The translations under genes were made by a program, and so were the position numbers. Positions 2,903 through 33,017 of a DNA stretch of 37,675 nucleotides are shown here, in pieces. Under the pieces are notes generated by a model, which was not told where the DNA came from, searched no databases, and worked only from the letters and a program-made list of their open reading frames with translations. Numbering within the stretch: the first letter of the stretch is position 1; each line of letters begins with the position of its first letter. Source of the DNA: Clostridiaceae bacterium (GTDB lineage: Bacteria; Bacillota; Clostridia; DSM-8532); contig JAAYBO010000060.1 in the NCBI GenBank assembly GCA_012730095.1, forward strand, positions 1 through 37,675. Direction: 5' to 3'.

Positions 2903-3217
2903 TGACATAATTATACAAAGGATGAGATATTTAATACACAAAAGATAAAATACTAATGTAACAAAAGAATAAAAATATTATACGCAATGGCGGCGGGGGA
3001 TTAACAAAAGATAAAAACAAGACCGACAAAAGAAAAAAATACAAAAGATAAATTAATAAGTTTTACTAAAGAAAAAATACAGAAAAAACACGAAGGAAAA
3101 AAATCAAAAGAACAAATGAACTTTTATCTTACATCGAAACCCGCGGCTTGGTTTATCCAGCCCGGGGGTTTGTTGTCTTAAAAGGCTATTATGGCAAGCT
3201 AATAAAGAGGTGAAAGT
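2903..3217 (+). other. A-rich repeat-bearing spacer between rsmH and ftsL
   Basis: This 315-base stretch has no good gene. It contains at least five near-copies of ACAAAAGATAAAA (starting near 2936, 2959, 3003, 3025 and 3040) and then further A-rich degenerate copies. The ORF through the repeats is Lys-rich and has no start codon before ATG 3117. The 3' part holds a GC-rich hairpin (3137-3171) and a GAGGTG ribosome site for ftsL. It may be an untranslated leader or a decayed gene. Confidence 0.6.
3137..3171 (+). terminator. Terminator- or attenuator-like hairpin upstream of ftsL
   Basis: Imperfect GC-rich inverted repeat: AAACCCGCGGCTTGG pairs with TCCAGCCCGGGGGTTT across a short TTTA loop, followed by the T-rich tgttgtctta. 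It could end the mraZ-rsmH transcript before ftsL or act as an attenuator. Confidence 0.5.
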
Positions 3218-3703: not shown

Positions 3704-3823
3704 ATATTAATGATATAGTCAAAATGGTGGTTTATGGCGAATATAAATATAGAGAGAATTATATGGGACAATGGATTGAAGGGCAACTGAACGTGAGTAT
3801 CGTTAAATGCGGCAATCTAAGGT

Positions 3824-3864
3824 CCTTTTTTGCAATATGAGCCGTTTTTATTGCCCAAAAAAGG
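3824..3864 (+). promoter_or_regulatory. Inverted repeat overlapping the spoVD ribosome binding site
   Basis: CCTTTTTTGCAATA (3824-3837) pairs with TATTGC-cc-AAAAAAGG (3849-3864), leaving a 2-base bulge and an 11-base loop. The 3' arm takes in the first Gs of the AGGGGG ribosome site that precedes the TTG start at 3874. Such a fold could lower translation of spoVD. Seen by eye; no energy computed. Confidence 0.4.
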
Positions 3865-3873
3865 GGGATTGGT

Positions 3874-6075: not shown

Positions 6076-6108
6076 AAAAAAATTAAGGCTGTTTATCGGA
6101 GGGTTATT

Positions 6109-7563
6109 ATGGAACTTAGTAAATTGATTGAAGGGCTCCCCGTAATAGATATTAAAGGGGCAATAAAAAAAGATATTACCCGGGTCGTATATGACTCCAG
6201 AAGAGCGGTGCCGGGATCTTTATTTGTATGCATAGATGGCTTTAAAACAGACGGACACAGGTTTTCGCAGTCTGCCGCCGATAACGGAGCCTCATCTTTT
6301 TTAGTTGAAAAAGACATTACAGTATTCGCGGATGCTACCGTGATAAAAGTACCGGACACACGATATGCGCTGGCCCATGTATCTGCGGCTTTCTTCGGCC
6401 ACCCTTCGGACAGGTTGGATCTGATAGGTGTTACCGGCACAAAAGGAAAAACTACGACAACGCACATGATTAAATCAATTCTGGAACAAACAGGCCAGAC
6501 CGTAGGTTTAATCGGTACTGTTGAAAACAGTATAGGCAGCGAAAAAATCCCGGCGCAGAGAACAACTCCCGAATCATATGACCTTCAGGAATTGTTTGAC
6601 AAAATGGCAGATAAAGGCGCCGATTCAGTTGTTATGGAGGTCTCATCACAAGGATTAAAGCTCAGCAGAGTGGATGCGTCACATTTTAAAATAGGTGTAT
6701 TCACAAATTTCTCAAAAGATCATATTGGTGCTAATGAGCACACCGACATGGAGGATTATCTGATTTCGAAACTTAAACTGTTTAAAATGGCGGATCGAGG
6801 CCTTGTCAATATCGATTCACCCTATTCCGGGCGCATACTTCAAGAGAGCAAATGCCCATGCCTGACATTTGGAATAGAAAACAGGGCCGATATTACGGCC
6901 GATAATATTACCTCATATGCGGATAAAGTCCGTTTTAACGTTCATACTCCGTGGTTTAGCCGTACCGTTGAGGTATCCGTACCGGGCCGGTTTACCGTTT
7001 ATAACGCTTTAGCTGCAATAGGCGTTGCTGGAATGATGAATGTTGATCCGATCCATATCGAAAACGGGCTTAAAAACATACATGTTCCTGGACGTGCCGA
7101 AATTGTTCCGACACCTGGAAAACCTTATACTGTTATGATTGATTACGCGCACACGCCGGACAGTCTTGAAAATATATTGAAAACAATTAAAGATTTTGTT
7201 CCGAACAGACTGATCAGCGTTTTCGGATGCGGAGGCGACAGGGACAGAGGCAAGAGGCCTGAAATGGGAAAAATATCAGGAGAAATTGCCGATTTAACGA
7301 TAATTACATCTGACAACCCGAGAACGGAAGATCCTGCCGGTATTATAAAGGACATTGAGCAAGGCATAAAATTAACGGACGGGCAATATATTATTATTCA
7401 GGACAGGACGGAAGCTATCCGCTACGCTATGAGCAATGCGCAGAAGGGAGATATTATTTTACTGGCGGGAAAGGGTCATGAGACATATCAAATATTCAGG
7501 GATAAAACCATCCACTACGATGAAAGGGAAATAGTAAGGGAAATACTCGAAGAACTGGAGTGA
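6109..7563 (+). CDS. murE: UDP-N-acetylmuramoyl-L-alanyl-D-glutamate--2,6-diaminopimelate ligase
   Basis: 484 aa, normal MurE length. The N-terminal domain binds the UDP moiety; the ATP-binding loop GTKGKTTTTHM is near residue 110, and the central domain has TTPESYDLQ and EVSSQGL. The C-terminal domain carries DYAHTPDSLENIL, CGGDRDRGKRP and DNPRTEDP near 402. DNPR is the motif that selects meso-diaminopimelate rather than lysine, implying an A1-gamma type peptidoglycan. The reaction adds mDAP to UDP-MurNAc-L-Ala-D-Glu in the cytoplasm. GGAGG precedes the ATG, and murF starts only 4 bases after the stop, so translation is probably coupled. Confidence 0.97.
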   Translation: MELSKLIEGLPVIDIKGAIKKDITRVVYDSRRAVPGSLFVCIDGFKTDGHRFSQSAADNGASSFLVEKDITVFADATVIKVPDTRYALAHVSAAFFGHPSDRLDLIGVTGTKGKTTTTHMIKSILEQTGQTVGLIGTVENSIGSEKIPAQRTTPESYDLQELFDKMADKGADSVVMEVSSQGLKLSRVDASHFKIGVFTNFSKDHIGANEHTDMEDYLISKLKLFKMADRGLVNIDSPYSGRILQESKCPCLTFGIENRADITADNITSYADKVRFNVHTPWFSRTVEVSVPGRFTVYNALAAIGVAGMMNVDPIHIENGLKNIHVPGRAEIVPTPGKPYTVMIDYAHTPDSLENILKTIKDFVPNRLISVFGCGGDRDRGKRPEMGKISGEIADLTIITSDNPRTEDPAGIIKDIEQGIKLTDGQYIIIQDRTEAIRYAMSNAQKGDIILLAGKGHETYQIFRDKTIHYDEREIVREILEELE

Positions 7564-7567
7564 TTAA

Positions 7568-8944
7568 ATGGACAGGATGCGCGCCGATAAAATCGCCGAA
7601 TGGATAGGCGGTAAGCTCATAGGGAATCCGGATACCGAGACGGATACAGTAAGCACCGATACAAGGACATTGAAGCCGGGCAGCCTGTTTTTTGCGATTC
7701 GCGGTAAAAACTTTGACGGGCATGAGTTTATAGATAAAGCCTTTGATAACGGAGCTGTGATTGTTGTATCGGAAACTTATGTAAAACCGCCGGAAGGCAG
7801 AGCGGCTGTAATTGTTGAGAATACTGTATCGGCGCTTGGGCGTCTTGCCGAAAAATATCTTAATACATATAAAATACCGGTTATCGCTATAACGGGAAGT
7901 GTTGGCAAGACTACCACTAAGGAAATGGTGGCGCAAATACTGTCAACGCAGTATAATGTACACAAGTCAATTGGCAACTACAACAACGATATAGGACTTC
8001 CATTGTCGGTTCTTCAGCTTGAACGCGGGCATACGGCGGCTGTTTTTGAAATGGGGATGAACGCCCTTGGTGAAATCGAATATCTTTCCCGTATCATACG
8101 GCCGGATATAGCCGTGATTACAAATATCGGCGTATCACATTTTGAAAAGCTCGGCTCACGGCAGAATATACTGCGGGCGAAACTGGAAGTGACCAAAGGC
8201 ATGAAGGATAACGGCATACTAATTTTAAACGGTGACGATGAGCTGTTATCAGGGCTTAACGGGCTGCTCAATATGCCTGTTGTGTATTATGGAATAAATG
8301 AAAATATTCCGCTCCATGCATTCGGAATTGAAACAATGGGTGAAGAAGGGGTACGCTTTTCAGTTAACATTCGCAATGAGGATGTCGAAATTGTTCTTTC
8401 GGCTCCCGGAATTCATCAGGTTTCGAATGCGCTTGCGGCTATTGCATGCGGTATAGAAATGGGAGTGTCGAACGAGAATATAATAAAAGGGCTTGCCTGC
8501 TATTCACATGAAAAAATGCGGCTGGATATAACAGGGATAAAAGGAGTAAAAGTAATTAACGACACTTATAATGCCGCACCTTCCTCAATGCTGGCGGCAT
8601 TGTCAGTTTTAAGAGAGATAGCGGGTAAAAGCAGAAGCATCGCGGTGCTTGGTGATATGTACGAATTAGGAAGTTATGCCGGCGAAGCCCATAGAGAAGT
8701 GGGCAGAGCGGTCGCAAATGAACGAATAAATTATCTTGTCGCTGTGGGAGAACTTGCAAGAGATTATTGTACAGGGGCTGTTGAAGCCGGTATGGACGCA
8801 AAAGCCATCAGTCATTACACCGATGCTAAAGATGCCGTACCATATCTGAAAAGCATTATTTGTCCCGATGATGTAGTGCTTTTTAAAGGTTCCCGGGGAA
8901 TGAGTATGGATCGGCTTATCAAAGATGTTTTTGACAGGGATTGA
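7568..8944 (+). CDS. murF: UDP-N-acetylmuramoyl-tripeptide--D-alanyl-D-alanine ligase
   Basis: 458 aa. The MurF layout is clear: a substrate-binding N domain with STDTRTLKPGSLFFAIRGKNFDGHEF, the P-loop TGSVGKTTTKEM near residue 110, the SIGNYNNDIGLPLS block, the MGMNALGEIEYLS block, and the C-terminal VINDTYNAAPSSM with AVLGDMYELG. It adds D-Ala-D-Ala to the UDP-MurNAc-tripeptide, completing the cytoplasmic precursor used by MraY, the next gene. The ATG at 7568 lies 4 bases after murE, with its ribosome site (ggagtg) inside the end of murE. Confidence 0.97.
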   Translation: MDRMRADKIAEWIGGKLIGNPDTETDTVSTDTRTLKPGSLFFAIRGKNFDGHEFIDKAFDNGAVIVVSETYVKPPEGRAAVIVENTVSALGRLAEKYLNTYKIPVIAITGSVGKTTTKEMVAQILSTQYNVHKSIGNYNNDIGLPLSVLQLERGHTAAVFEMGMNALGEIEYLSRIIRPDIAVITNIGVSHFEKLGSRQNILRAKLEVTKGMKDNGILILNGDDELLSGLNGLLNMPVVYYGINENIPLHAFGIETMGEEGVRFSVNIRNEDVEIVLSAPGIHQVSNALAAIACGIEMGVSNENIIKGLACYSHEKMRLDITGIKGVKVINDTYNAAPSSMLAALSVLREIAGKSRSIAVLGDMYELGSYAGEAHREVGRAVANERINYLVAVGELARDYCTGAVEAGMDAKAISHYTDAKDAVPYLKSIICPDDVVLFKGSRGMSMDRLIKDVFDRD

Positions 8945-8997
8945 TTACGGCCGCTGACAGAAATAATGTGATAAACTATTTTACCGGAGGAGAAAAT

Positions 8998-9981
8998 ATG
9001 GCGTGGATAAATAGTATTCCTTCCCATATTACCGTATTTATTGCCGCATTTATACTGGCCTTAATTTCAGGAGCCATACTGCTTCCGCTTCTAAAAAGAT
9101 TAAAGTTTGGACAGATGGTAAGGAATGACGGACCCAAAACACATTTGGCAAAGCAGGGTACTCCTACAATGGGCGGATTTATATTTTTGGTTCCGCTGTT
9201 AATTATCGGCGGTTTCTATGCTCCAAAAGATATGAATATGGCGGCTTTGATTTTAACGACAGCAGGATTTGGCATAGTAGGTTTTATTGATGATTTTCTT
9301 AAAATAAAAAGAAAAAGCAATGAAGGCTTGCAGCCAAAACAAAAAATGCTTGGCCTTTTGATTATATCAGCATGTTTCACCGCATATATTGTCTTAATGA
9401 CAAATGCGGGTGAAAAAACGGTGATACCATTTGTCGGCATTGACAATCCGATTAATATCCCAATTGCTCTGTTTGTACCGTTCTGCTTCTTTGTGCTTAT
9501 AAGTTATACAAATGCCGTTAATCTCACGGACGGGCTTGATGGTCTCGCGGGAAGCATTACGATGATAGTATTGGTTTTTTTTACCGTTGTTGCGATGATG
9601 AACAGCGAATGGGATTCGATAAAGCTGTTTTGCGCCATCCTGGCAGGAGCATGCCTTGGATTTTTAGCATATAATTTATACCCTGCAAAGGTAATAATGG
9701 GAGATGTGGGTTCACTGGCGCTGGGCGGTGCCGTGGCTGCGGTTTCATTACTGCTGCAGATGCCGTTTATTTTGTTTATCGCCGGGTTTGTTTATTTTAT
9801 TGAAAATATGTCGGTAATCCTGCAGGTTGTTTACTACAAGAAAACAGGGAAGAGAATTTTCAAAATGGCACCTATTCATCACCATTTTGAACTTCTTGGA
9901 TGGAAAGAAACAAAAGTTGTAATAGTTTTCCTTATTGCAACTGTTATTTTTTGTACGATAGCTTTTTATGCTTTGAGGTGA
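8998..9981 (+). CDS. mraY: Phospho-N-acetylmuramoyl-pentapeptide-transferase MraY
   Basis: 327 aa from ATG 8998, preferred over the TTG at 8941 of the ORF track because GGAGG sits 6 bases upstream and the family begins this way. It is polytopic (about ten TM segments). MraY signatures: GTPTMGGFIFL, the Asp pair in GFIDDFLKIKRK, NAVNLTDGLDGLAG, GDVGSLALGG and the histidine-rich MAPIHHHFELLGW. It transfers phospho-MurNAc-pentapeptide to undecaprenyl phosphate, making lipid I. In most relatives murD comes next; here ftsW follows directly. Confidence 0.97.
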   Translation: MAWINSIPSHITVFIAAFILALISGAILLPLLKRLKFGQMVRNDGPKTHLAKQGTPTMGGFIFLVPLLIIGGFYAPKDMNMAALILTTAGFGIVGFIDDFLKIKRKSNEGLQPKQKMLGLLIISACFTAYIVLMTNAGEKTVIPFVGIDNPINIPIALFVPFCFFVLISYTNAVNLTDGLDGLAGSITMIVLVFFTVVAMMNSEWDSIKLFCAILAGACLGFLAYNLYPAKVIMGDVGSLALGGAVAAVSLLLQMPFILFIAGFVYFIENMSVILQVVYYKKTGKRIFKMAPIHHHFELLGWKETKVVIVFLIATVIFCTIAFYALR

Positions 9982-9986
9982 AACTA

Positions 9987-11108
9987 TTGAGGCGCAGGGA
10001 TTTTGATTTATGGATATTTATAACGATTTTGATTCTTCTTATGATAGGCGTAAGTATGGTTTACAGTGCAAGCTCCTATTATGCGCTTAGAATATTTGGA
10101 AGTAAGGAGTATTTCCTGATACGTCAGCTCATATGGTCAACAATAGGCGTGTTTGCAATGCTTTTTGTTTCTCGGCTTGATTATCATAGAATAGCGCAAT
10201 TTTCACCTATTATGATACTGGTGAGTATTGTACTTTTAATTCTTGTATTGATACCCGGAATTGGTTCGGAAGTAAATGAGTCACGAAGATGGTTCAACTT
10301 CGGATTCGCTTCTTTCCAGCCGTCTGAAATGGCAAAGCTGTCGGTTATCTTGTTCTTTTCATTCACGCTTTCAAAGAACAGCGAGAGGCTTAAATATTTT
10401 TGGAAAGGCCTGGTTCCATACCTATTGGTAATTGGGGTTATTGATGTTCTGCTTATGAAAGAACCACATTTCAGCGGGACTATTCTTATATCGTCGGTCG
10501 CGGTAATTATTCTTTTTTGCGCCGGTGCAAAAATATGGCATTTTATCCTTATTACAGTACCTACTATTCCTCTTATTGTATATTTAATAATGACCGAAGA
10601 ATACAGGCTGAAAAGGGTTCTTACATTTCTTAACCCGTTTGAAGATCCCACCGACAGCGGGTACCAGATCGTAAATTCATTGTACGCAATAGGTTCGGGA
10701 GGCCTTTTCGGTAAAGGTATCGGTCAAAGCATACAAAAGAATTTATACATTCCCGAACCGCATACTGATTTTATATTTTCGATATTGGCCGAAGAGCTCG
10801 GCTTTATCGGTGCGGTTACCGTTCTTTTGTTATTCCTTGTTATAATCTGGCGTGGGATAAGGATTGCGATGTATGCCCCGGATATACTCGGAAGTTTGAT
10901 AGCGGTTGGCATAACTTCTTTGATTGCAGTCCAGGTTATCATTAACGTTGCTGTTGTAACGTCATCCATGCCGGCCACAGGTATGCCTCTTCCTTTCTTT
11001 ACGTACGGCGGCAGTTCTCTTGCTTTCCTAACGGTCGGGTTAGGAATACTGCTCAATATTTCCAGGTCAGTCGGAACCCAATACAGGCTAAAAAGGGAAA
11101 AGATGTAA
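9987..11108 (+). CDS. ftsW: SEDS peptidoglycan glycosyltransferase FtsW/SpoVE
   Basis: 373 aa from TTG 9987, with GAGGTG 6 bases upstream overlapping the mraY stop. The track start at 9900 lies inside mraY and gives a non-family N terminus. About ten TM segments. SEDS signatures: VYSASSYYAL, ESRRWFNFGFASFQPSEMAKLSVI, FLNPFEDPTDSGYQIVNSLYAIGSGGLFGKGIGQS, IPEPHTDFIFSILAEELGF and LPFFTYGGSSL. SEDS proteins polymerise lipid II together with a class B PBP, here probably the SpoVD-type protein of this cluster. FtsW (division) and SpoVE (cortex) cannot be told apart by motif. Confidence 0.94.
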   Translation: MRRRDFDLWIFITILILLMIGVSMVYSASSYYALRIFGSKEYFLIRQLIWSTIGVFAMLFVSRLDYHRIAQFSPIMILVSIVLLILVLIPGIGSEVNESRRWFNFGFASFQPSEMAKLSVILFFSFTLSKNSERLKYFWKGLVPYLLVIGVIDVLLMKEPHFSGTILISSVAVIILFCAGAKIWHFILITVPTIPLIVYLIMTEEYRLKRVLTFLNPFEDPTDSGYQIVNSLYAIGSGGLFGKGIGQSIQKNLYIPEPHTDFIFSILAEELGFIGAVTVLLLFLVIIWRGIRIAMYAPDILGSLIAVGITSLIAVQVIINVAVVTSSMPATGMPLPFFTYGGSSLAFLTVGLGILLNISRSVGTQYRLKREKM

Positions 11109-11258
11109 ATCCGCTGTTGTTAAAGTAACAGAATTTCTAATGCCGCATAGAATAAATTATGAAAAATCTAAACTAAATTCAGCAGGCATTTCTTAAGATG
11201 TTTACTTAACCTGTAAGTTACCCCGTTATTATTGACAACAAAAGCGGAGGTGTTTTTC

Positions 11259-12527
11259 TTGAGCAGATTCATAATAGAAGGCGGCAACCGGCTTAACGGC
11301 GAGCTTAAAATACCGGGTGCTAAAAATGCCGTCTTGCCTATTCTTGCGGCCACAATACTGAATCGAGGAACGAGTACGATTCATAACTGTCCGAACCTGG
11401 AAGATGTTGCAACAATGCAGGAGATTCTTGTTTCACTCGGATTACGGGTTGAACGCAGCAATAAAAGTATTGCAGTGCATGGAGACAGTATTGCGACAAA
11501 TAAAATTCCTGAATCGTCGGCAGGAAAGATGCGAAGCTCGATAGTTTTAATGGGGGCTATATTAGGCCGTATCGGGGAGATTTATATAAGTTATCCGGGA
11601 GGATGTGCAATTGGCCCAAGGCCTATCGATATGCATTTAAATGCTTTAAGAAAGATGGGCGCCGAAATTGATGATTTATATAAAGGCATATTACACAGTA
11701 AGGTAAAAAGAATGCGGGGCGCCGAAATACTTCTGGACTATCCCAGTGTGGGAGCTACTGAAAACATTATGCTTGCCGCAAGTCTTGCCGAAGGGGTAAC
11801 AATTATCAGAAATGCAGCGAAAGAACCTGAAATCGTTGATCTTCAGAATTTTCTTCAGAAAATGGGAGTAGAAATAAGCGGAGCCGGAACAGGCGTAATA
11901 TATATTACCGGTAAGGATGAAATAAAAACTGACGTGTCATACAGCGTAATTCCCGACAGGATCGTAGCGGGTACTTATATGACCTGTGCCGCAGCAGCGG
12001 GGGGAGAAATCGTTCTTAACGGCATTGAATATGAACCGGTGAGTTCCACGGTATATTGCCTTAGAAACTGCGGGGTTCATATTGAACCGATTGGTAAAAA
12101 GATAATAAGAGTGAAATCGGATAAAATTCCAAAAGCTATCGAAGTCGTACGCACATCGCCTTATCCGGGATTTCCGACAGATATGCAGCCCCAGCTTGTC
12201 GCATTGTTATCAAAAGCTTCTGGAACAAGTGTTGTAATAGAGACGGTTTTTGAAAACCGGTACGGGTATGTTGAGCAGTTAATGAGAATGGGAGCGGATA
12301 TAACGGTCAGGGAGCGGGTAGCGGTAATAAAAGGGGTAAAAAGGTTGACAGGGGCTTTTGTCGACGCATGTGACCTGAGAGGAGGAGCTGCTTTAGTTGT
12401 GGCTTCCCTTTGCGCTGAAGGAACCAGCATCATTAATAATATTAAGCATATTGACAGAGGTTATGAATCCTTGGAAGAGCATCTGTCAAGTGTTGGAGCA
12501 CTAATAAGAAGGGATCAAAGCGGTTGA
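11259..12527 (+). CDS. murA: UDP-N-acetylglucosamine 1-carboxyvinyltransferase MurA
   Basis: 422 aa from TTG 11259, with AAAGCGGAGG upstream. The nine extra codons in the track overlap the ribosome site. It has the EPSP-synthase-like two-domain fold, with GNRLNGELKIPGAKNAVLPILAATIL at the N terminus. The active-site loop YPGGCAIGPRPIDMHL near residue 115 keeps the Cys that binds PEP and fosfomycin. Also visible are YPSVGATENIMLAA, TSPYPGFPTDMQPQ and FENRYGYVEQL. It performs the first committed step of peptidoglycan synthesis. About 150 bases separate it from ftsW, where relatives often carry murG. Confidence 0.97.
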   Translation: MSRFIIEGGNRLNGELKIPGAKNAVLPILAATILNRGTSTIHNCPNLEDVATMQEILVSLGLRVERSNKSIAVHGDSIATNKIPESSAGKMRSSIVLMGAILGRIGEIYISYPGGCAIGPRPIDMHLNALRKMGAEIDDLYKGILHSKVKRMRGAEILLDYPSVGATENIMLAASLAEGVTIIRNAAKEPEIVDLQNFLQKMGVEISGAGTGVIYITGKDEIKTDVSYSVIPDRIVAGTYMTCAAAAGGEIVLNGIEYEPVSSTVYCLRNCGVHIEPIGKKIIRVKSDKIPKAIEVVRTSPYPGFPTDMQPQLVALLSKASGTSVVIETVFENRYGYVEQLMRMGADITVRERVAVIKGVKRLTGAFVDACDLRGGAALVVASLCAEGTSIINNIKHIDRGYESLEEHLSSVGALIRRDQSG

Positions 12528-12543
12528 ATTTATTGCCCGCTTT
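12517..12543 (+). terminator. Weak hairpin over the murA stop codon
   Basis: AAAGCGG (12517-12523) and CCGCTTT (12537-12543) flank the murA stop with a 13-base AT-rich loop, followed by aattagcctttctt. A possible partial terminator before the ftsQ promoter. Confidence 0.3.
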
Positions 12544-12555
12544 AATTAGCCTTTC

Positions 12556-12585
12556 TTGCAGGCATGTGCGACGGTATGATATAAT
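12556..12585 (+). promoter_or_regulatory. Internal promoter upstream of ftsQ
   Basis: TTGCAG, an 18 bp spacer and TATAAT, with a TGA extension just before the -10 (TGnTATAAT). It lies about 70 bases upstream of the ftsQ ATG. A near-consensus extended -10 promoter. Confidence 0.65.
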
Positions 12586-12655
12586 TTATAGTTGAAAATA
12601 GTTTGAAAAAATACCTGGAACTCCGTATATCATACGCTGCAGGCAGGGATAACAA

Positions 12656-13429
12656 ATGAAAAAGAGTAATAAGGGTTTTACATTTTTTATAACGGTTCTG
12701 CTTATCATACTTGGCTTGGCGGCGGTAATGATGTTTTCGCCGCTGTTTTTATTATCACAGATTAAAGTTGATGACATTTCCCGCTATACAAAAGACGATA
12801 TTATTAATGTCTCCGGAATAGAAAAAGGTCAAAATGCAATGAAATACCTTGGAGGGAGCATGCGGCATCTTTTGCAGATGAGAATGGGAAAAGCCGAGAA
12901 ATATGTAGAAAACCTTCCATGGGTGAAATCAGCGTTTATACAATTTCAATTCTCCGGAGTTGTACATATTTCCGTTATAGAAAGAAATCCCATCGCATGG
13001 ATTAAGTATATGGGCAACTATCTGCTTGTGGATGAGGAAGGCGTTGTTCTGGAAGTATCAACGCAATTGGATGAAAGATACCCTGAAATCAGGGGTTTAA
13101 AACCGGAGAAATATACAATAGGGAAAATGATTGAAATTGAAAAGCCGGAAAGGATTACATGGCTTGTACAGCTTCTTAAAAGCCTTGAACACGTAGATAG
13201 AGATTCATCACAAAGCTTGGTCGAAGCCCTGGATTGGATTGATTTTTCAGAAAATGACGAATTATATATGTCACTGGACAGAAGAATTGCGGCAAGAGTA
13301 AATTTAGACAGTGAACTGACATACAGGCTTTCTTTATTAAAAGAAATATATTACAATCATATTAAGAAAGAAGAAAAAGGAATAGTAGACTTTTTTGGGG
13401 ACAAATATGCAAGATTTATTCCGGAATGA
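12656..13429 (+). CDS. ftsQ: Cell division protein FtsQ/DivIB
   Basis: 257 aa bitopic protein. It has a short basic N terminus, one TM segment (about residues 9-31), a POTRA-like domain starting at LLSQIKVDDISRYTKDDIINVSGI (about 32-105), and the FtsQ beta domain with WVKSAFIQFQFSGVVHISVIERNPIAW and YLLVDEEGVVLE. This is the standard FtsQ/DivIB order. It is an extracytoplasmic scaffold that binds FtsL and DivIC. The ATG follows cagggataa and is served by its own promoter. Confidence 0.92.
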   Translation: MKKSNKGFTFFITVLLIILGLAAVMMFSPLFLLSQIKVDDISRYTKDDIINVSGIEKGQNAMKYLGGSMRHLLQMRMGKAEKYVENLPWVKSAFIQFQFSGVVHISVIERNPIAWIKYMGNYLLVDEEGVVLEVSTQLDERYPEIRGLKPEKYTIGKMIEIEKPERITWLVQLLKSLEHVDRDSSQSLVEALDWIDFSENDELYMSLDRRIAARVNLDSELTYRLSLLKEIYYNHIKKEEKGIVDFFGDKYARFIPE

Positions 13430-13518
13430 TACACTGCTCACCTGTGCGTTCCGGCGTGTTGGAATAGTTTGGTAATTTCTTGTGTTGTTTAAAATACAGA
13501 TAAGGAAGGAGACTTGTT

Positions 13519-13860
13519 ATGATACCGTTACTCGGCCTAATGCTTGGTTTACTTATCGGTATACTGATCCCGTACAATATTCCTAAAGAATATTCAAATT
13601 ATGCCGCAGTTGCAATCTTAGCGGCACTGGATTCAGTTTTCGGCGGTTTATATGCATCGATGAATAACAAGTTTAACATTAAAGTCTTTTTATCCGGATT
13701 CTTTGGAAATTCGCTGCTCGCTGCTTTATTGGCTTATATCGGTGACCGCCTCGGCATATCGCTGCATCTGGCTGCGGTGTTTGCTTTTGGTAACCGGATA
13801 TTTCTAAATTTCGGGCTAATTAGAAGAAAACTGCTTGAAAAAAACCATGAAAAAATATAG
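13519..13860 (+). CDS. sbp: Small basic protein Sbp (DUF1290 family)
   Basis: 113 aa with three hydrophobic segments (about residues 2-20, 28-48 and 60-95) and a basic tail. The start MIPLLGLMLGLLIGILIPYNIP and the block AILAALDSVFGGLYA are characteristic of the Sbp family found next to ftsQ/ftsZ in sporulating Firmicutes and actinobacteria. The role is poorly defined; a link to division is inferred from position. It starts after ggaaggag. The DUF881 genes that often flank sbp are missing here. Confidence 0.9.
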   Translation: MIPLLGLMLGLLIGILIPYNIPKEYSNYAAVAILAALDSVFGGLYASMNNKFNIKVFLSGFFGNSLLAALLAYIGDRLGISLHLAAVFAFGNRIFLNFGLIRRKLLEKNHEKI

Positions 13861-13867
13861 CTCAAGC

Positions 13868-13895
13868 TTGATTTTATGATGTATTGAGATATAAT
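13868..13895 (+). promoter_or_regulatory. Promoter upstream of ftsZ
   Basis: TTGATT (13868-13873), a 16 bp spacer and TATAAT (13890-13895), about 130 bases upstream of the ftsZ TTG. ftsZ therefore probably has independent transcription. Confidence 0.55.
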
Positions 13896-14023
13896 ATTAT
13901 TTAAGAAGAAATTTCAATCTTTTTACGGTAAATAACCGGAATTGGAAAAAAATCATTTTTTTGATTGGTTTCAAACAAAAATTGTCTTTACATAAGATAA
14001 GATATATAAAGGGGGATACGGGT

Positions 14024-15115
14024 TTGCTGGAATTTGATATTGATATGGATAACTTTGCCCGCATTAAGGTAGTTGGTGTTGGCGGAGGCGGAAACAACGC
14101 GGTAAACCGTATGATTGACGCGGGGCTTCGCGGGGTTGATTTTATCGCTGTAAACACCGATAAGCAAGCATTATTTCTATCAAAAGCCAATACTAAAATC
14201 CAAATCGGAGAAAAGCTTACCAAAGGCCTTGGGTCGGGTGCAAACCCGGATATAGGCGAAAAGGCGGCCAATGAAAGCCGTGATGAAATAGCGATGGCAA
14301 TAAAAGATGCCGATATGGTTTTTGTTACGGCAGGTATGGGCGGGGGAACCGGAACCGGTGCGGTGCCCGTTATTGCACAGATTGCAAGGGAACTTGGAAT
14401 TCTAACGGTGGGCGTAGTTACCAAACCCTTTATGTTCGAAGGGCGAAAAAGGATGCAGTATGCTGAAAAAGGCGTCGAGAATTTAAAATCAGTAGTTGAC
14501 ACCCTTGTTACAATTCCAAACGACAGGTTATTACAAATAGCCGACAAGAAAACTTCAATGCTCGAAGCTTTTAGAATCGCTGATGATGTGCTAAGGCAGG
14601 GCGTCCAGGGTATTTCCGATCTTATTGCCGTTCCCGGTCTTATAAATCTTGATTTTGCGGATGTGAAGACAATAATGCTTGAAACCGGTCTTGCTCATAT
14701 GGGAATAGGTAAAGGCACAGGTGATAATAAAGCCGAGGAAGCCGCGAAACAGGCGATTTCAAGCCCGCTGCTTGAAACGTCGATAGAAGGCGCAAAGGGT
14801 GTATTGCTCAACATTACCGGCGGCCCCGATCTTGGTTTGCAGGAAGTAAATCTGGCGGCGGAGTTAATACAGAATTCCGCAGATCCCGAGGCAAACATTA
14901 TCTTTGGAGCGGTAATAGACGAGAATCTTAAAGATGAAATGTTAATAACCGTAATTGCTACCGGTTTTGATAAGAGTCCTGTTTTGAAACGTCCGAACAA
15001 ACTGTTGGATGCAACCCAGGTTGGAGAAGCGGCAAAAGCCGCCGCGGCAACCCAGCAGGATGATGATGACGGCCTTGATATTCCAGTATTCCTGAAAAGG
15101 AATCGTTTCAGATAA
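14024..15115 (+). CDS. ftsZ: Cell division GTPase FtsZ
   Basis: 363 aa from TTG 14024, which lies 8 bases after AAAGGGGGA; the track start at 13961 would add 21 residues not seen in the family. GTPase features: [25 protein letters not shown], the tubulin signature [15 protein letters not shown], and the T7-loop region [11 protein letters not shown]. The C terminus [12 protein letters not shown] is the conserved peptide that binds FtsA, SepF or similar membrane tethers. It polymerises into the Z ring. A strong hairpin follows the stop; no spoIIGA-sigE pair follows, unlike in many Clostridia. Confidence 0.98.
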
Positions 15116-17455: not shown

Positions 17456-18581
17456 ATGAGCCTAATTTTATTGGAACAAATCCGTCCGCAAATAAAGGAG
17501 CTATTGGAAAGCATACTTGAATTGAGGGATTCACTTTGATGTGCCGGCATTGGAAAAAGAACTGGCGGAGCTAGATCGAAAAGCTCAGGAACCGGATTTT
17601 TGGAACGACATGGATAATTCCCAGCGGATTTTGCAACAAAGTAAAAGTATCAGGGAAAAGCTTAACGATTATATTTCACTGGAAAATGATTGCCATGATT
17701 TGTTGACTCTTGTTGAACTTGGACTGGAAGAAAAGGATGAAAGCCTTCTGTCCGAAGTTCAGGAAAACTTTGATGATTTAAGCAAGAGGTTTGAAAAGTT
17801 AAAGCTGAAAACACTATTAAACGGTGAATATGACAGAAACGATGCGATATTAACTCTTCACGCGGGAGCAGGCGGAACTGAGGCTATGGATTGGGTGCAG
17901 ATGTTATTTCGGATGTATTCAAGATGGGCTGAAAACAACGGGTTTAAGACTCGCGTACTGGACTTCCTTGAAGGCGACGAAGCAGGAATTAAAAGCATTA
18001 CCGTTGAGGTGACGGGAGAAAATGCTTATGGTTTTTTAAAAAGCGAAAAAGGTGTTCACCGCCTTGTACGGATTTCTCCCTTCGACTCGTCCGGAAGACG
18101 GCATACATCATTTGCATCAATGGATGTTGTTCCTGTTATGGATGAGTCCATAGAAATTGATATCAATCCTGATGATATAAAGATGGATGTGTACCGTTCC
18201 AGCGGAGCGGGCGGGCAGCATGTGAACAAGACTTCCTCCGCGGTAAGGATAACGCATCTTCCTACCGGTATTGTAGTTTCATGCCAGAATGAAAGATCTC
18301 AGCATCAAAACAGGGAAACCGCAATGAAAATACTTTACGCTAAGCTTTTGGAAATAAAGGAAATTGAGAAGCAGCAAAAAATCAGCGCATTAAAGGGAGA
18401 GCAGATGGACATAGCCTGGGGAAGCCAAATACGCTCCTATGTATTCTGCCCTTATACTATGGTAAAGGATCACCGTACCGGTTATGAAGAGGGAAACATA
18501 CAAAAGGTTATGGACGGTGAAATAGACGAGTTTATAAGTGCGTATCTTGCTTTATCGGCAAAAAAAGTTAATAAACAATAA
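17456..18581 (+). CDS. prfB: Peptide chain release factor 2 with programmed +1 frameshift
   Basis: The track shows only the second frame from GTG 17541. The real start is ATG 17456 (after aaagggatgag): 27 codons MSLILLEQIRPQI...LRDSL end at CTT TGA (17534-17539). Slipping one base (skipping T17537) reads on as DVPALEKELAELDRKAQEPDFWND, giving 374 aa, normal for RF2. The SD-like AGGGAT lies the same distance before CTT as in the classic AGGGGGTATCTTTGA site. The body has the SPFDSSGRRHTSFAS region and the GGQ loop SGAGGQHVNKTSSAVR that triggers peptide release at UGA/UAA. RF2 thus controls its own synthesis: low RF2 favours the frameshift. secA, a common upstream neighbour, is absent. Confidence 0.97.
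17534..17540 (+). promoter_or_regulatory. prfB programmed frameshift site (CTT TGA T)
   Basis: The slippery CTT plus in-frame TGA, preceded by an internal SD-like AGGG at 17525-17528. Frame 0 stops here; frame +1 continues for 347 residues of RF2. Confidence 0.95.
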
Positions 18582-18589
18582 TAAAGCAC

Positions 18590-18620
18590 AAACGGTAACA
18601 GCCACTGCCTGTTACCGTTT
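18590..18620. terminator. Bidirectional hairpin shared by prfB and the convergent carboxypeptidase-like gene
   Basis: Perfect 12-bp arms AAACGGTAACAG and CTGTTACCGTTT with a 7-base loop, followed on + by aacgcttttctttttt. The second arm contains the reverse-strand AAA CGG TAA, the last two codons and stop of the minus gene. Confidence 0.75.
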
Positions 18621-19829
18621 AACGCTTTTCTTTTTTATCCACTTGACGAATTTAATAATGAGTATAATTGCTTCTATTACGGCGAGCCCGACGATTATAT
18701 AGAAAATTTCCTTATATTCCATAATTCTTTTCTTAATCTTATCAAACTTGGACATTTCAGGGAGTATCTCCCTGTCAGGAAACAGATCGACAGTGATGAC
18801 GGTGCCATCGGCAAGTGTGAACTTTGCGGTTCCAAGAAGGGTATTTTTGTATAACGGGAGCTTAAAATTTTCGTTAACTTTTTCGATTTTAAATTCAAGA
18901 ATATAGTTATCACCGACCGGGTATGTATAATAAACATCACTTCCAACCACAAGGGGCACTTCATGGCCTTCTATAATTGCTCTATCCATGGTCTGGCCTT
19001 TTGCTACCAATATGCCTCTTCTGAAGTTTGTAAAACCGTAATCAAAAAGTTTCATACTATCGGAATACATGCTGTCCGAAGGTGAATCGAGCAAAATACA
19101 AAGCAGTCGTTGCTGTCCGCGCGTAACGGTTGTTATAACGGTTTGGAATTTTGGATCGTTGTAGTCTACCTTCCCGCCGTCAACACCGTCATAACTCCAG
19201 AACATATCGTTGAGGTTTGTCAGCACTATTGTTTTTTCTTCGTCAAACCAAGGTTTCGCCTGCGATGAAAAAACGGTATCGAAAGCAGGGTTTGCGGTTA
19301 GCGCATGCCTTAATAGTATCGCGAGATCAGATGCAGTTGTGCGCTGGTTTTCATTATATGTGCCGGTGGGGTTTGCATAAACGGTATTTTTCATGTTTAA
19401 TGATGCAGCATAGTCATTCATCATTTTCACAAAATCGTCAACAGTTCCTCCCACAGCTTCCGCAAGAGCAATTGTCGCGTCATTCGCGTTATTAAGCATT
19501 GATGCGTAAACCAAGCTTTCCGTCTGGTATTTCTCTCCTACTGTTAGCCCAAGTAAAGCGCCGTCGGCGTTTACAGCTTCTTTGCTCGCGGTGACCATTG
19601 TATTGGGGTCTAACTTCTCTATGGCAATTAAAGCGGTCATAAGCTTTGAAGCCGCAGCGATGTGTAATGGCTCATCAGGGTTTTTTGAATAAAGGACCTG
19701 ACCCCTTCTTAATTCAAGCATCAAAGCCGAAGCAGCTTCAATCATAGGTTCTGAATTAAAGGCAGAAGCCGGCAGCGAAAGAAACAATATAAATGCTAAT
19801 GAAATTGCAGCAGTATGTCTTTTTATCAT
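18612..19829 (-). CDS. D-alanyl-D-alanine carboxypeptidase homologue (S11 family) lacking catalytic motifs
   Basis: 405 aa from ATG 19829, chosen because GGAGGC stands 6 bases upstream and a signal peptide follows (IKRHTAAISLAFILFLSLPASA). The layout is that of DacF/PBP5: an S11 transpeptidase-like domain (about 30-270), a PBP5 C-terminal domain (about 280-365) and a C-terminal TM anchor (IIVGLAVIEAIILIIKF). The active-site motifs are altered: SxxK reads AASK (HIAAASKLMT), SxN reads NAN (SMLNNANDA), and KTG reads KVD (VDGGKVDYN). Without the nucleophilic Ser it should not hydrolyse D-Ala-D-Ala. The fold and anchor are kept, and the ORF is long and intact, so it is probably a working non-enzymatic wall-binding or regulatory protein. 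Confidence 0.88.
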   Translation of the reverse strand: MIKRHTAAISLAFILFLSLPASAFNSEPMIEAASALMLELRRGQVLYSKNPDEPLHIAAASKLMTALIAIEKLDPNTMVTASKEAVNADGALLGLTVGEKYQTESLVYASMLNNANDATIALAEAVGGTVDDFVKMMNDYAASLNMKNTVYANPTGTYNENQRTTASDLAILLRHALTANPAFDTVFSSQAKPWFDEEKTIVLTNLNDMFWSYDGVDGGKVDYNDPKFQTVITTVTRGQQRLLCILLDSPSDSMYSDSMKLFDYGFTNFRRGILVAKGQTMDRAIIEGHEVPLVVGSDVYYTYPVGDNYILEFKIEKVNENFKLPLYKNTLLGTAKFTLADGTVITVDLFPDREILPEMSKFDKIKKRIMEYKEIFYIIVGLAVIEAIILIIKFVKWIKKKSVKR

Positions 19830-20018
19830 AAAAAAGCCTCCGAAACAAATATCAATTATGCCGCATGTTATATCTATATAATACCATATTCCCCGGAAAA
19901 ACGGATTCAAAAATATATTCTAAATTCTGATAACATATATATTTATCTATATTAGGATATTCCTTATCAATAGTTTTACACATTTTCATTTTCAAAACAA
20001 GTTTTTTATAAAAAAATG

Positions 20019-20110: not shown

Positions 20111-21208
20111 TTGTCAGGGGAAAAGGTAAGGATTTCACCGAACCAAATAACTGTTATAATAATAACACTGATAATATCAACGGTAGACATATTTCTGCCG
20201 AACTTTGTTGCGAGGGAAGCAAAAAAGGATTCATGGCTTTCGGTTATTGTTGCAGTTGCTGCAGTGCTGCCGGTTGTGTTAATTCATTTAATGCTTTACC
20301 GTAAATACCGGGAAAGTACGTTAATTGAAATTTGTAAAAAAACCGGCGGAAAAGTTTTCGGAATATTTTTCGGTTTATCGTATGTTTTATATTTTTTGCT
20401 GATTTCATGGACCGTTACAGGTGAAATGAGCATAGTTATGAATTCCGCGTTTTTACCGCTGACCCCATCATGGTTTTTTTTGACGGTATCGGTCCTGGTT
20501 TCGGCTTATGCGGTTTCGAGGGGTATTGAAGCAATCGCAAGATTAAGTGAAATTCTGCTGCCTGTGGGAATTTTTGCGTTTTTATTTCTCTTTGCTGAGA
20601 ATGTGAAAAATGTAGATTTTAAAAACTTTCTTCCTGTTTTAAGCGAAGGAATTACTCCACCGGTGCGGGGCGGGCTTATAATTGCAGGAGTACTTTTTGA
20701 AATTATAGTTATAATGCAAATACTGCCGTTTGCAAGCGACCAAAAAAGAGTTGGAAGGCCAGTGTATATAGGATTGCTGATTAGCGGCGCATGTATATTT
20801 GCCGGTACGATTATATACGGTTTTTTCGGTCAATTAACCGAAGCTTTCTTGCTGCCGGCACTTGAATTTGCACGGTATGCTCCGATAGATTCAAATATTC
20901 AAAGCCTGGATATTTTTATCATTGCTATCTGGATTACCGGTATTTATATAAAAATAATGGTTTTTTATTATACGGCGGTATTTTCTCTTGCGCAGCTTTT
21001 TTCAATTGAGGATTATAAAAGATTGGTTATTCCTGTTGGTCTCTTTATTTACAGTATGTGTACCGTATCATGCGAAAAAGTTACCGCGGGAATGAACTTT
21101 ATTCACTATATTTTCCCCGTATACTCTATGACAATGGGTTTTTTGATTCCGGGGTTGATGCTGATAATTAGTTATTTCAGCAAAAAGAGTGCAAAAGCAG
21201 CGGCTTGA
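20111..21208 (+). CDS. gerB: Spore germination permease subunit GerB (GerAB/GerKB type)
   Basis: 365 aa with about ten TM segments. The start ISPNQITVIIITLIISTVDIFLPNFVAREAKKDSWLSVIVA is typical of endospore germination permeases (APC superfamily). The region around residues 85-130 and the late EKVTAGMNFIHYIFPVYSM also fit. The B subunit binds or passes the nutrient germinant in the spore inner membrane and works with A and C subunits. TTG 20111 is the start, with GGGGAGG 6 bases upstream. It points towards the gerA-gerC genes on the other strand instead of lying between them. Confidence 0.92.
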   Translation: MSGEKVRISPNQITVIIITLIISTVDIFLPNFVAREAKKDSWLSVIVAVAAVLPVVLIHLMLYRKYRESTLIEICKKTGGKVFGIFFGLSYVLYFLLISWTVTGEMSIVMNSAFLPLTPSWFFLTVSVLVSAYAVSRGIEAIARLSEILLPVGIFAFLFLFAENVKNVDFKNFLPVLSEGITPPVRGGLIIAGVLFEIIVIMQILPFASDQKRVGRPVYIGLLISGACIFAGTIIYGFFGQLTEAFLLPALEFARYAPIDSNIQSLDIFIIAIWITGIYIKIMVFYYTAVFSLAQLFSIEDYKRLVIPVGLFIYSMCTVSCEKVTAGMNFIHYIFPVYSMTMGFLIPGLMLIISYFSKKSAKAAA

Positions 21209-28223: not shown

Positions 28224-31200
28224 TTACAACCTTTCAAAGTACAATTCGGGTAATATAATTTGAATTTCATTATCGGTATTTTCTTTTTTCCAATATACGA
28301 TAAAATTAATTTTTGCTGATTTAAGCATATAACCGTTCCCTTTTACAGAGGTAATTTTTTCTTGCCCCTGTTTTGAAAACCTTAATACGGCTTGTCCTTT
28401 TTCGTTTAAGCAATACTCACCATTGACGGCAAGTTCATCACCGCTGAACAGTTCGGAAATTTGACGCTGACATGACATGAAAAAGTCAAGATGAACATCT
28501 TTATGTGAAAGCTGTAATGCTAATTGGCGGGGTGGTAAATAAACATTATTATCATTAACCGTTTCAAGGTTTTCAGTATTAATAGAATCCAAATAGCTGC
28601 CATTATAATGAATGGTAAGATTCATTTTTGCTCTTGTCATAGCAACATACAAAAGCCTCAGCTTTTCGTCCTTGTTTGGGCAGAAACCGTCGAGCATAAT
28701 AAAGACATTGTCAAACTCACGGCCTTTTGCTTTATGCATTGTTGATACAAGGACTGTATCGGTCTTTTCATCATAGAAGTCTTCGAGATTCGATTCACGA
28801 ATAAAAATTTCCAGGTCGGATTTATATTTTGTTTTGACATGCGTTAATTCGAACTCTCTGATAATGTTTTTAATTATTTCATAATTTGTGTGCCTTCCAA
28901 ACTGCTCTTTTACTTTTCGTTTTGCATCCTCCCAAACTTCATCACCTATGGCGTAAGCTTTGCCGCCCATATTCAATCGATTAAGAAAATATCTGATTTC
29001 GAGCAAATTATATAAACTAAATCCGTCATTCGATTGAATAAGTTTCGCCGGCATGCCGTTATTCAGAAGCAATCCGGTTATTTGCAGCGCTTCGCCGTTT
29101 TTATTGGTTAATACGCATGTGCTTCCTGAAAGATCCTGTGTCAGAATATCATTTACCACAGGTTCAATAAGGTTTGTCGTTCTGTATTTAAGTATTCTTA
29201 TTCTACCGTTGTCCTTTTGAGAAGGCTGGATTTTAGTGTGTTTCAAACGATTTCTGATTTTCATCGCAAACTGATTTGTAAAACTGACAAGGTTTGCCCT
29301 GCTTCTGAAGTTCTCAACCAACTCATAGACGGTCGCATTTTTTTCTTTAATTAACCGCTTCATATATTCCGAGCTTGAGCCCCTGAATTCGTAGATATTC
29401 TGATCATCATCCCCAACTGCTATTACGCGCATATCCTCGTTATATTCCATAAGACACTTTATAAGCTCAAACTCATTTGCATCCATGTCCTGCGCTTCGT
29501 CAATAACCATTACCGTTTTGGTTATTTGCGAAGGTTCAACTTCACCGTTCTTAATTTTAATAACGGCTTCTTCAATAATTTTATCGGACTTTTCAATAGT
29601 ACCGACCTTGCCGAGCAAGTCGAAGCAATAAGAGTGGAATGTTTTAATATCTATGAAATTTGCGGCATTGCCGTAAAGCTTTATAAGCCTTTTTTTGAAC
29701 TCGTTTGCCGCCGATCTTGAGAATGTCAACATCAGCAGCTGCTCATGCTTTACATCTTCAATATATAAAAGGGAAGCCAGTTTGTGAACCAATACCCGGG
29801 TCTTTCCACTTCCAGGTCCGGCGGCAACTACAATATGCTTTGATTTGTTATCGTTTATGATATTTAGCTGGGACGGACTCAAACTGCCAAAAAGCTGTTT
29901 GAACTTAGCGGGGGTAATTGTTTTTCTAATCTGATTCTTTCTGCTTCCTTTAAAATATTTCACAAGGAACGAGCTGTAGTTCAGTTGAAAATAATCATCG
30001 ACAAACTGAAGCGCCGCTTTATAATCATCAATCATTTTTTTGGCGTATTCCCCGACAATATGGATCTGCTGTACTTTGTTATCGTAATACTCATCCAGTT
30101 TTCGATAGTCATCGGCCTTATAACGTTTTTTATTATTCATTTCAAGCCGTTCTATATCCATTGCATTGTAGAAAACTAAAAAACCGCCTTCCAGATATAG
30201 CGCGTCAATCCTTGACAGGTAAAACAGCGCGTCCTCAATATCTTTATGGGTGGTTTTGGTTCCAAACATTGTAATTTGGTTATTAAACGCTTCTTTTAAC
30301 TCAAGCCTGGAAAACTCAACCGGTATTTCTCCTTTGGAATTAGCTTCCTGTGAAGCTGTGCTTACTTTACTATACAGGTATTCCAATATAAATTTTGCTG
30401 TCTCATAACGTTTTATAATTTTCTCTCCGACAATTTCTTTATTATAAAGGGTATAAACTGCAAGATGATTCGGAGGTATCGTCTTACGCTTTATCAATTT
30501 GTTTATCGCCCACAAATTCGTAATAGTTTTCAGTTTATTCGGTGTTATATCGCTGCATCCATACTTTTCAGCCTGTTCATTAAGCTCCTTTATATGAAAA
30601 GTTTTTTCATCCTCGGTAAGAACGGTAAGTAAAAAGTCTTCAATCTTTCTGTACATGTTCAAAATATTCAGCGAATTGTTAATATTCTCCTTTTTCTTTA
30701 TATATGCTGATAAATCCTTAGCGTCGGACAGAAGCCGTTCTTCACGAAGCAAATTTACTATATGTATTACAGTTTCTTTTTCAATACCGAGACGGTCCGC
30801 GATATAGTCAACCCTCGCTTCAGCCTCCTCAGTATCTGCACGGCTTCTGCTTCTGGTGGCTATAAGCATTTTTATTATCCTTATAGCCTGTACCTTTTCA
30901 TCATCGGTAAAAATGCCCGAGGCGTTGATTTTGCTTATCGCCTCCTGTGCATTCCTTGCCAGGATGCTGTCGGCATATACCCTGGGCATATTTTGCCCTC
31001 TTTTTATATAGCCGGCTTCTTCAAGGGCGTTAATTGCAGTTTTAACCTTTGTTTCGAGGTCAAAGATGTTCTCGTCCCATCCGGCTTCACGAGCAATTTC
31101 CAAAGCCGACCGGGATACTCTTTTTCGCATTCTTGTAATGGATTTTATTGCTCTCCATATTTGCTGGATTTCCTTGATGCTTAGTTTGGTCTGGTTCAAA

Positions 31201-33017
31201 AGAATAAAATGCTTGTTAAGGTCTTCATCGTTGTATAATACATAGCAATCCGCCTGAATGGATTCATCTCTCCCAGCCCTTCCCGCTTCCTGAACGTAGT
31301 TTTCAAGGGAATCGGATATATCATAGTGGATAACCATGCCAACATCCTTTTTGTCGACTCCCATACCGAAGGCCGACGTTGCAACCATTATTTGAACATC
31401 CCCTTTAATGAACGCATCCTGGTTTTCTGTTTTTACCTGCTTATCCATTTGCCCATGATAAGACCTTGCTTCATAGCCGTCTTCGCATAACCTTGAGGCC
31501 AGTATTTCAGCTCTTTTTGTTCTCGAAACATAAACAATCGTTGGGCAGTTTTTTTCATCAATTAAATTTCTTATTGTAATATATTTGTCCTCACCGCCGT
31601 CCTTTTCCAATACCTTATAACGAAGGTTGCTTCTTGATGCGTTGGTTCTGAACAATTCCAGCTCAATGGACAGCTTTTCCCTGAAATATTCTCTTATATC
31701 GTCAATAACTTTTTGTTTTGCCGTGGCTGTAAAACAGGAAACAGGGATTCCGTCGGTGAGGTTTTTCTTTTCCTGGTATGACCTTATGAATTCGCCGATA
31801 TATAAATAATCGACCCTGAAATCCTGACCCCATGCGGAAAAACAGTGTGCTTCATCGATAACAAAACGGACGACATTCCTGCCAAGCAGCAGTTTTTCAA
31901 TCGTTTTTGAACGCAGCGATTCCGGTGATATATAAAGAATTGAGGCCGAGCCATCTTCCACGCGTTCAATTGATTTTGCTCTTTCGATCGGATCAAGCAA
32001 ACCGTTTATTGTGACCGCGTCGGTTATACCGACTTTTTCAAGATTATCAACCTGATCCTTCATCAGTGACTGCAGGGGTGATATAACGACAGTCAGGCCT
32101 TTCGTGTTAATGCCGCTCATGAGAGCCGGAAGCTGGAACGTCACCGATTTACCGCCCCCGGTTGGGAATATCGCCAGAAGTGATTTATTGTCGACTGCCG
32201 CCTGGGCTGCATTTTTCTGCAGGGGTTCACCTGCATACATTCTGAATGAATCGAAACCAAAAAACCGTTTTAAGCCTTTTTGTATATCAAGTGCTTCGCT
32301 GCAGTATTCGCAGCCTGTCAAACACAACTTATTCCTTAAAAATCGCATCACCTGCTCAACACCGGGGTAAGTTTTTACTACCCATGGAGGGGTAATTGAA
32401 TATCTGCTTTGTGTATTTATTAATGCAAGGCAATAGGATAATTCCACCGGGTTCTCGCCGATTAATTTATTCAGGTTGACATTTTCACAAATCAAAGAAT
32501 GAAATTTTGTACGGATCATGTTTTCCAAATCATTTATATAAGCATCTTGACCAACAAAACGGAAAAAAGCTTTAAATTCTCTCCTGTTATGCAAAAGACC
32601 AAAAAAGATATTCTTAAGACTGCCATCAAGCTGTTGGAATGCTGCGACTTCGTCATAAAAAAGGTCCCGGGCTTTTATTGAATCATTCAGAGGATTATTT
32701 ATTTCATCTGTTTGCAGTTTATCATCCTTTAGCAGTGAATGATAAGGCTTTGCGGGGAATAGAAGGGGTGACAGAAACAAAGTGTCAATTATGTATTCAT
32801 CACTTATTCCGGCTTCGGTAACCGCGTTTTGAATATATTTTATATCATGGTTCAATATGTTATGGCCGCAAACGTATTTTGAACCTTTAATAAACTCTAT
32901 AAAAGCGGCAACGGAATCTGAATGAAAGCTGTTTCCGTTATCTTTAACAGCGCCAATATCAAGGATTTTATTGTTTTTAGGATCAATTTCAGTATCAACA
33001 AAAACAATCGGATTCAT
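28224..33017 (-). CDS. Three-domain fusion: DnaQ-like exonuclease region, RecQ helicase, UvrD-like helicase
   Basis: 1597 aa, one uninterrupted frame. Residues 1-180 resemble a DEDD exonuclease: IVFVDTEID (Asp8/Glu10) and VCGHNILNHDIKYI; the third acidic motif, in SIKARDLFYDEV, is less clear and the usual His is not seen. Residues 270-630 are an SF2 RecQ core: FPTGGGKSVTFQLPA (near 289), IDEAHCFSAWGQDFR (near 387) and ATSAFGMGVDKKDV...EAGRAGRDE. A probable winged-helix or linker region follows. Residues 1040-1500 are an SF1 UvrD/Rep core: AAGPGSGKTR (near 1067), VIDEAQDMD (near 1172), GDDDQNIYEFRGS, STMHKAKGREFDNV and YVAMTRAK (near 1459). A Cys cluster (CLTGCEYC) precedes the RecQ core. The architecture suggests coupled unwinding and end processing in repair or recombination. 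No flanking partner gene is seen. Confidence 0.9.
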   Translation of the reverse strand: MNPIVFVDTEIDPKNNKILDIGAVKDNGNSFHSDSVAAFIEFIKGSKYVCGHNILNHDIKYIQNAVTEAGISDEYIIDTLFLSPLLFPAKPYHSLLKDDKLQTDEINNPLNDSIKARDLFYDEVAAFQQLDGSLKNIFFGLLHNRREFKAFFRFVGQDAYINDLENMIRTKFHSLICENVNLNKLIGENPVELSYCLALINTQSRYSITPPWVVKTYPGVEQVMRFLRNKLCLTGCEYCSEALDIQKGLKRFFGFDSFRMYAGEPLQKNAAQAAVDNKSLLAIFPTGGGKSVTFQLPALMSGINTKGLTVVISPLQSLMKDQVDNLEKVGITDAVTINGLLDPIERAKSIERVEDGSASILYISPESLRSKTIEKLLLGRNVVRFVIDEAHCFSAWGQDFRVDYLYIGEFIRSYQEKKNLTDGIPVSCFTATAKQKVIDDIREYFREKLSIELELFRTNASRSNLRYKVLEKDGGEDKYITIRNLIDEKNCPTIVYVSRTKRAEILASRLCEDGYEARSYHGQMDKQVKTENQDAFIKGDVQIMVATSAFGMGVDKKDVGMVIHYDISDSLENYVQEAGRAGRDESIQADCYVLYNDEDLNKHFILLNQTKLSIKEIQQIWRAIKSITRMRKRVSRSALEIAREAGWDENIFDLETKVKTAINALEEAGYIKRGQNMPRVYADSILARNAQEAISKINASGIFTDDEKVQAIRIIKMLIATRSRSRADTEEAEARVDYIADRLGIEKETVIHIVNLLREERLLSDAKDLSAYIKKKENINNSLNILNMYRKIEDFLLTVLTEDEKTFHIKELNEQAEKYGCSDITPNKLKTITNLWAINKLIKRKTIPPNHLAVYTLYNKEIVGEKIIKRYETAKFILEYLYSKVSTASQEANSKGEIPVEFSRLELKEAFNNQITMFGTKTTHKDIEDALFYLSRIDALYLEGGFLVFYNAMDIERLEMNNKKRYKADDYRKLDEYYDNKVQQIHIVGEYAKKMIDDYKAALQFVDDYFQLNYSSFLVKYFKGSRKNQIRKTITPAKFKQLFGSLSPSQLNIINDNKSKHIVVAAGPGSGKTRVLVHKLASLLYIEDVKHEQLLMLTFSRSAANEFKKRLIKLYGNAANFIDIKTFHSYCFDLLGKVGTIEKSDKIIEEAVIKIKNGEVEPSQITKTVMVIDEAQDMDANEFELIKCLMEYNEDMRVIAVGDDDQNIYEFRGSSSEYMKRLIKEKNATVYELVENFRSRANLVSFTNQFAMKIRNRLKHTKIQPSQKDNGRIRILKYRTTNLIEPVVNDILTQDLSGSTCVLTNKNGEALQITGLLLNNGMPAKLIQSNDGFSLYNLLEIRYFLNRLNMGGKAYAIGDEVWEDAKRKVKEQFGRHTNYEIIKNIIREFELTHVKTKYKSDLEIFIRESNLEDFYDEKTDTVLVSTMHKAKGREFDNVFIMLDGFCPNKDEKLRLLYVAMTRAKMNLTIHYNGSYLDSINTENLETVNDNNVYLPPRQLALQLSHKDVHLDFFMSCQRQISELFSGDELAVNGEYCLNEKGQAVLRFSKQGQEKITSVKGNGYMLKSAKINFIVYWKKENTDNEIQIILPELYFERL

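Follow-up and report, generated by a model that had tools for sequence, protein, structure and literature searches.

What can a D,D-carboxypeptidase homologue contribute to a cell when all three of its catalytic motifs are broken? This question is raised by a gene on the minus strand (18612–19829) of a 37,675-nucleotide stretch of DNA from a Clostridiaceae bacterium, referred to in its entirety as the window. The gene encodes a 405-aa member of peptidase family S11 (P0001) from an ATG start with a GGAGG-like site just before it.

Domain architecture and active-site motifs

From the ORF, an exported and membrane-attached protein with the architecture of PBP5-type low-molecular-mass penicillin-binding proteins (PBPs) can be deduced. 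The Peptidase_S11 domain (PF00768, residues 25–249, 19083–19757) is matched with 159.1 bits at a Pfam cut-off of 27.6, which places the protein in family S11, and is followed by a PBP5_C stalk domain (residues 288–354, 18768–18968; 32.3 bits, cut-off 21.2). A 19-residue hydropathy scan indicates an N-terminal signal at about residues 5–23, corresponding to a low-confidence leader in the structure model, and hence a predicted signal peptide of about residues 1–23 (19761–19829) with a putative cleavage site PASA/F. At the C-terminus, hydropathy values of up to 2.6 mark a membrane helix at residues 372–399 (18633–18716; 373–403 in the AlphaFold2 model) which is accompanied by a basic, presumably cytoplasmic tail. 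The AlphaFold2 model, calculated from the family alignment, is confident and PBP5-like (pLDDT 89.3, pTM 0.76), with 3mfd (E 7e-28) and structures of PBP5 and PBP6 as best Foldseek matches. Accordingly, the signal peptide, PBP5 C-terminal domain, membrane anchor and long intact frame described in the sequence-only reading are all recovered by Pfam, hydropathy and the ORF itself. Its warning about automatic annotation was equally justified, as Pfam alone would assign the label of an S11 carboxypeptidase.

The closest solved relative is DacB of Bacillus subtilis (PBP5*, 3mfd; PF00768), sharing the fold (TM-score 0.84–0.90 over the target), the domain order and about 28% identity. In contrast to DacB and Peptidase_S11 proteins in general, the window protein lacks the catalytic Ser, SxN and KTG, while its stalk is unusually conserved within its family. 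Likewise, the Escherichia coli proteins PBP5 and PBP6 (DacA and DacC) combine S11 and PBP5_C domains with export and C-terminal membrane attachment, but the window protein is devoid of their acylation machinery, and its membrane helix is long and hydrophobic and carries a basic tail. Membrane attachment of E. coli PBP5 is by an amphipathic helix.

Motif columns were read from an alignment with 40 S11 paralogues and B. subtilis DacB (3mfd). At the nucleophile position, all 40 sampled paralogues bear Ser, whereas the window protein has Ala59, its SxxK motif being degenerated to AASK (residues 59–62, 19644–19655). Similarly, SxN is replaced by NAN (residues 114–116, 19482–19490) and KTG by KVD (residues 220–222, 19164–19172), so that none of the three motifs of an active serine D,D-carboxypeptidase or PBP is present, exactly as had been claimed from the sequence alone. 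Lys62, Asn116 and Lys220, one part of each motif, are still in place, and the motifs are thus broken rather than erased. A serine in a valid SxxK elsewhere would have overturned the claim; the sole such string in the protein, SQAK at residue 189, lies outside the catalytic helix and was rejected as a substitute, and K[T/S]G is absent from the whole protein.

Orthologue family, locus and selection

The alignment with homologues proposed earlier was carried out and shows that the altered motifs are conserved across an orthologue family. This family comprises 72 sequences and is monophyletic with respect to active S11 proteins (support 100/100), all of which keep the Ser in this comparison; profile scores separate orthologues (at least 444 bits) from paralogues (at most 275 bits). 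Within the window's order, 28 of 33 genomes carry an orthologue, as do 43 of 58 in a second order and 36 of 391 in a sample of the class, one of these 36 (G046) belonging to a further family. A sample of 398 other genomes from the phylum contained none. Among the sampled genomes, the family is consequently almost confined to two orders. Named members are Thermoclostridium caenicola, Acetivibrio straminisolvens, A. mesophilus, Ruminiclostridium cellobioparum, R. sufflavum and R. papyrosolvens; the copies of T. caenicola and R. papyrosolvens are among those devoid of the Ser. The Clostridium thermocellum S11 gene Cthe_0272, for which changing expression is described (PMC3880215), could not be tied to the window orthologue.

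The locus is largely syntenic, which supports orthology: in both orders, glgP recurs on the upstream side and dapB or prfB on the downstream side. In the window, the convergent neighbour is prfB, encoding peptide chain release factor 2 (17541–18581, plus strand) and conserved in the window's family, and a terminator-like stem-loop lies between the two genes (18589–18621). In Ruminiclostridium and the window's group, germinant-receptor genes stand where glgP is found otherwise; the window itself has the divergent Spore_permease gene for a GerB-type receptor subunit (20111–21208, plus strand). As neighbours vary between lineages, an operon partner was rejected. Upstream of the gene, a block common to the window and the same-genus genome L035, TTTTTGAATYCGTTTTTCCGGGGAATATGGTATTA at about 19860–19925, is perhaps a promoter, and by eye the block conserved in the genus looks like an extended −10 element of the main sigma factor. 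A consensus promoter scan returned no more sites than in shuffled sequences and did not pick up this block; hence, assignment to a promoter class was rejected. In Acetivibrio loci (L052, 9970–11247, and relatives), a gene with a domain resembling class A beta-lactamases by eye is located just past dapB and thus near family members with intact motifs.

Position 59 is occupied by Ala in 19 orthologues, Leu in 17, Ser in 13, Ile in 12, Val in 6, Thr in 3 and Cys in 2, so that the nucleophile is not Ser in 59 of the 72 sequences (Ala, Leu, Ile, Val or Thr in 57). All three motifs are kept in only six members, every one belonging to the Acetivibrio group, ten have lost SxxK alone while keeping SxN and KTG, and 41 keep no motif at all. 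In L054 and L106 of the Acetivibrio group, the nucleophile position is taken by Cys (CANK) and both SxN and KTG are preserved; their sister L059 (A. mesophilus) has Ser and all three motifs. Judged from these present-day members, it looks as if Ser was lost first and SxN and KTG later. The best tree requires at least five changes between Ser and non-Ser, but a single clade of all members with neither Ser nor Cys is not rejected by the AU test (p = 0.376). Multiple independent losses are therefore not claimed, as the data are also compatible with a single ancestral one.

Orthologues in two genomes of the same genus (L034 and L035) are 87–89% identical to the window gene and show the same broken motifs, which excludes a sequencing error since these genomes were assembled independently. 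Between the window gene and these orthologues, dN/dS is 0.07–0.11, and every close pair that gave a usable estimate has a value of 0.03–0.18, more distant pairs being saturated. Moreover, the reading frame is intact in all 72 orthologues. The earlier suggestion of a selected pseudoenzyme is thus borne out, with both frame and loss of the Ser maintained under purifying selection. Two intact S11 paralogues are encoded in the same genome and would provide its carboxypeptidase activity.

Conservation shift and proposed function

Compared to paralogues, constraint in the family has moved off the active-site motifs, as far as can be read from alignments. It now falls on the stalk and the membrane helix, together with a small number of aromatic and Gln/Arg positions specific to the family. 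With each group realigned within itself, stalk identity is 42% in the family versus 22% in DacF-like paralogues at 50–60% identity of the catalytic domain. In a simpler comparison based on the joint alignment, motif columns reach 57% in the family versus 88% in paralogues and the membrane helix 39% versus 22%. Fixed residues specific to the family include Q44, Q162, F187, W194, F210, W211, G219, Y301, P304 and D341. Three of these, F210, W211 and G219 (96–100% in the family; less frequent or missing in paralogues), belong to the strip MFWSYxGxDGG (residues 209–219, 19173–19205), which runs into the dead KTG strand. Stalk conservation is equally high in the Ser-keeping orthologues (41%), indicating that the shift is probably older than the loss of catalysis.

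As the gene is kept by selection despite the lost Ser, its product probably has a non-catalytic job in cell-wall building. On balance, it is best interpreted as a relative of D,D-carboxypeptidases of the PBP5/DacA type that is anchored in the membrane, has lost catalysis and serves as non-catalytic partner in peptidoglycan metabolism, a reading of modest confidence. The protein would be sited outside the membrane close to the wall, where neither D-Ala-D-Ala peptides nor beta-lactams should be able to acylate it, and would act through binding. The likeliest contact would be another peptidoglycan enzyme, either a synthase complex or one of the active S11 paralogues. Stalk, membrane helix and cleft rim would form the contact surfaces, and the enzyme might then be positioned or restrained. 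Relatives with SxN and KTG but no Ser may reflect a transitional state, with stem peptides still bound but left uncut. Such a non-catalytic effect is plausible in view of two precedents. In E. coli, dimer state, localisation and cell shape are altered by the presence of PBP5-S44G and not by its inactivity (PMC5596342), and in Clostridioides difficile the contribution of PBP3 to asymmetric division does not depend on catalysis by this protein (PMC12713402). PBP5-S44G likewise is a Ser-less S11 protein still affecting shape and dimer state, albeit a laboratory mutant, whereas the window family is natural.

Several observations count against this interpretation. The neighbourhood of glgP, dapB, prfB and the ger genes gives no specific pointer to a wall complex. 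Stalk conservation is, by the alignments, not specific to the dead forms and could reflect structural demands instead of a binding partner. In addition, the persistence of Lys62, Asn116 and Lys220 makes residual or altered chemistry conceivable.

Among the other explanations, a non-catalytic binder or sensor of stem peptides fares best, though it is unlikely. Here, the cleft would hold muropeptide ends without acylation, shielding pentapeptides from trimming or reporting the state of the wall, in line with the ten members missing only the Ser of SxxK and with the strong conservation of the cleft strip MFWSYxGxDGG. However, the window's clade has also broken SxN and KTG, which provide substrate contacts in active enzymes, and the motif columns are far less protected than in paralogues. 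Still less probable is a spore-specific factor, that is, a dead DacF- or DacB-like spore-envelope protein tied to cortex or germination. It would fit the germinant-receptor genes that adjoin the gene both in the window and in three of its close relatives, the gerA-type genes next to it in Ruminiclostridium and the occurrence of SpoIVA in nearly all hosts checked. Nevertheless, the ger adjacency seems secondary, as the older context looks like the one with glgP and dapB or prfB, and the upstream block points by eye to the main sigma factor, the formal scan being not above chance. SpoIVA occurs both with and without the gene (56 of 58 genomes of the second order, regardless of its presence); co-occurrence is consequently silent on a sporulation link and was rejected as evidence for one. 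An enzyme with altered chemistry, acylated at another residue or at Cys in some relatives, appears very improbable: the three retained motif residues and the two Cys-bearing Acetivibrio-group members would suit it, but most members have Leu, Ile, Val or Ala as the residue at the nucleophile position, the protein offers no SxxK elsewhere and the newly fixed family residues form no obvious catalytic set. Finally, a decaying gene without function, as the degenerate motifs might suggest, can practically be dismissed, being contradicted already by low dN/dS and further by intact frames in all 72 orthologues, a syntenic locus kept across two orders and invariant family-specific residues.

Returning to the non-catalytic partner in peptidoglycan metabolism, a broader scenario can be put forward tentatively. 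In two clostridial orders, an ancient S11 carboxypeptidase may have evolved into a protein without catalysis that is dedicated to regulating peptidoglycan enzymes, with the Ser maybe lost once and the site then drifting freely, stalk and membrane helix as the working parts and the Acetivibrio group representing the active or near-active starting state.

Fold and architecture of the protein are those of ordinary S11/PBP5 proteins, and natural inactive serine-peptidase homologues are already known; like the window family, those reported in a survey of prokaryotes have lost catalytic residues inside an enzyme family, albeit in S1, S8, S12, S14 and S16, not S11 (PMC2605481). Full-text searches of open-licence papers turned up no report of an S11 carboxypeptidase that is naturally dead across a whole family. 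Inactive PBPs are known mostly as laboratory mutants. Since culturable bacteria harbour intact, Ser-less and fully degenerate versions of the protein, a non-catalytic scaffold role in wall growth is directly testable. Furthermore, the family illustrates that S11 annotation alone over-predicts carboxypeptidase activity.

Other features of the window

A division and cell-wall cluster on the plus strand (1521–15115) extends by inspection from mraZ to ftsZ; murD and murG seem to be absent, and a MurA-type gene of the EPSP synthase family (11232–12527) follows the FtsW/SpoVE gene. On the minus strand, 28224–33017 encodes a single chain of 1597 aa joining a RecQ-like half (DEAD/Helicase_C) and a UvrD-like helicase half; the first approximately 150 residues of the protein resemble a 3'-5' exonuclease by eye and have no Pfam match. 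Also on this strand are a gene for an extracellular solute-binding protein fused to a copper amine oxidase N-terminal domain (33432–35915) and a glycosyl hydrolase family 9 gene (36478–37656) interrupted by the contig end.
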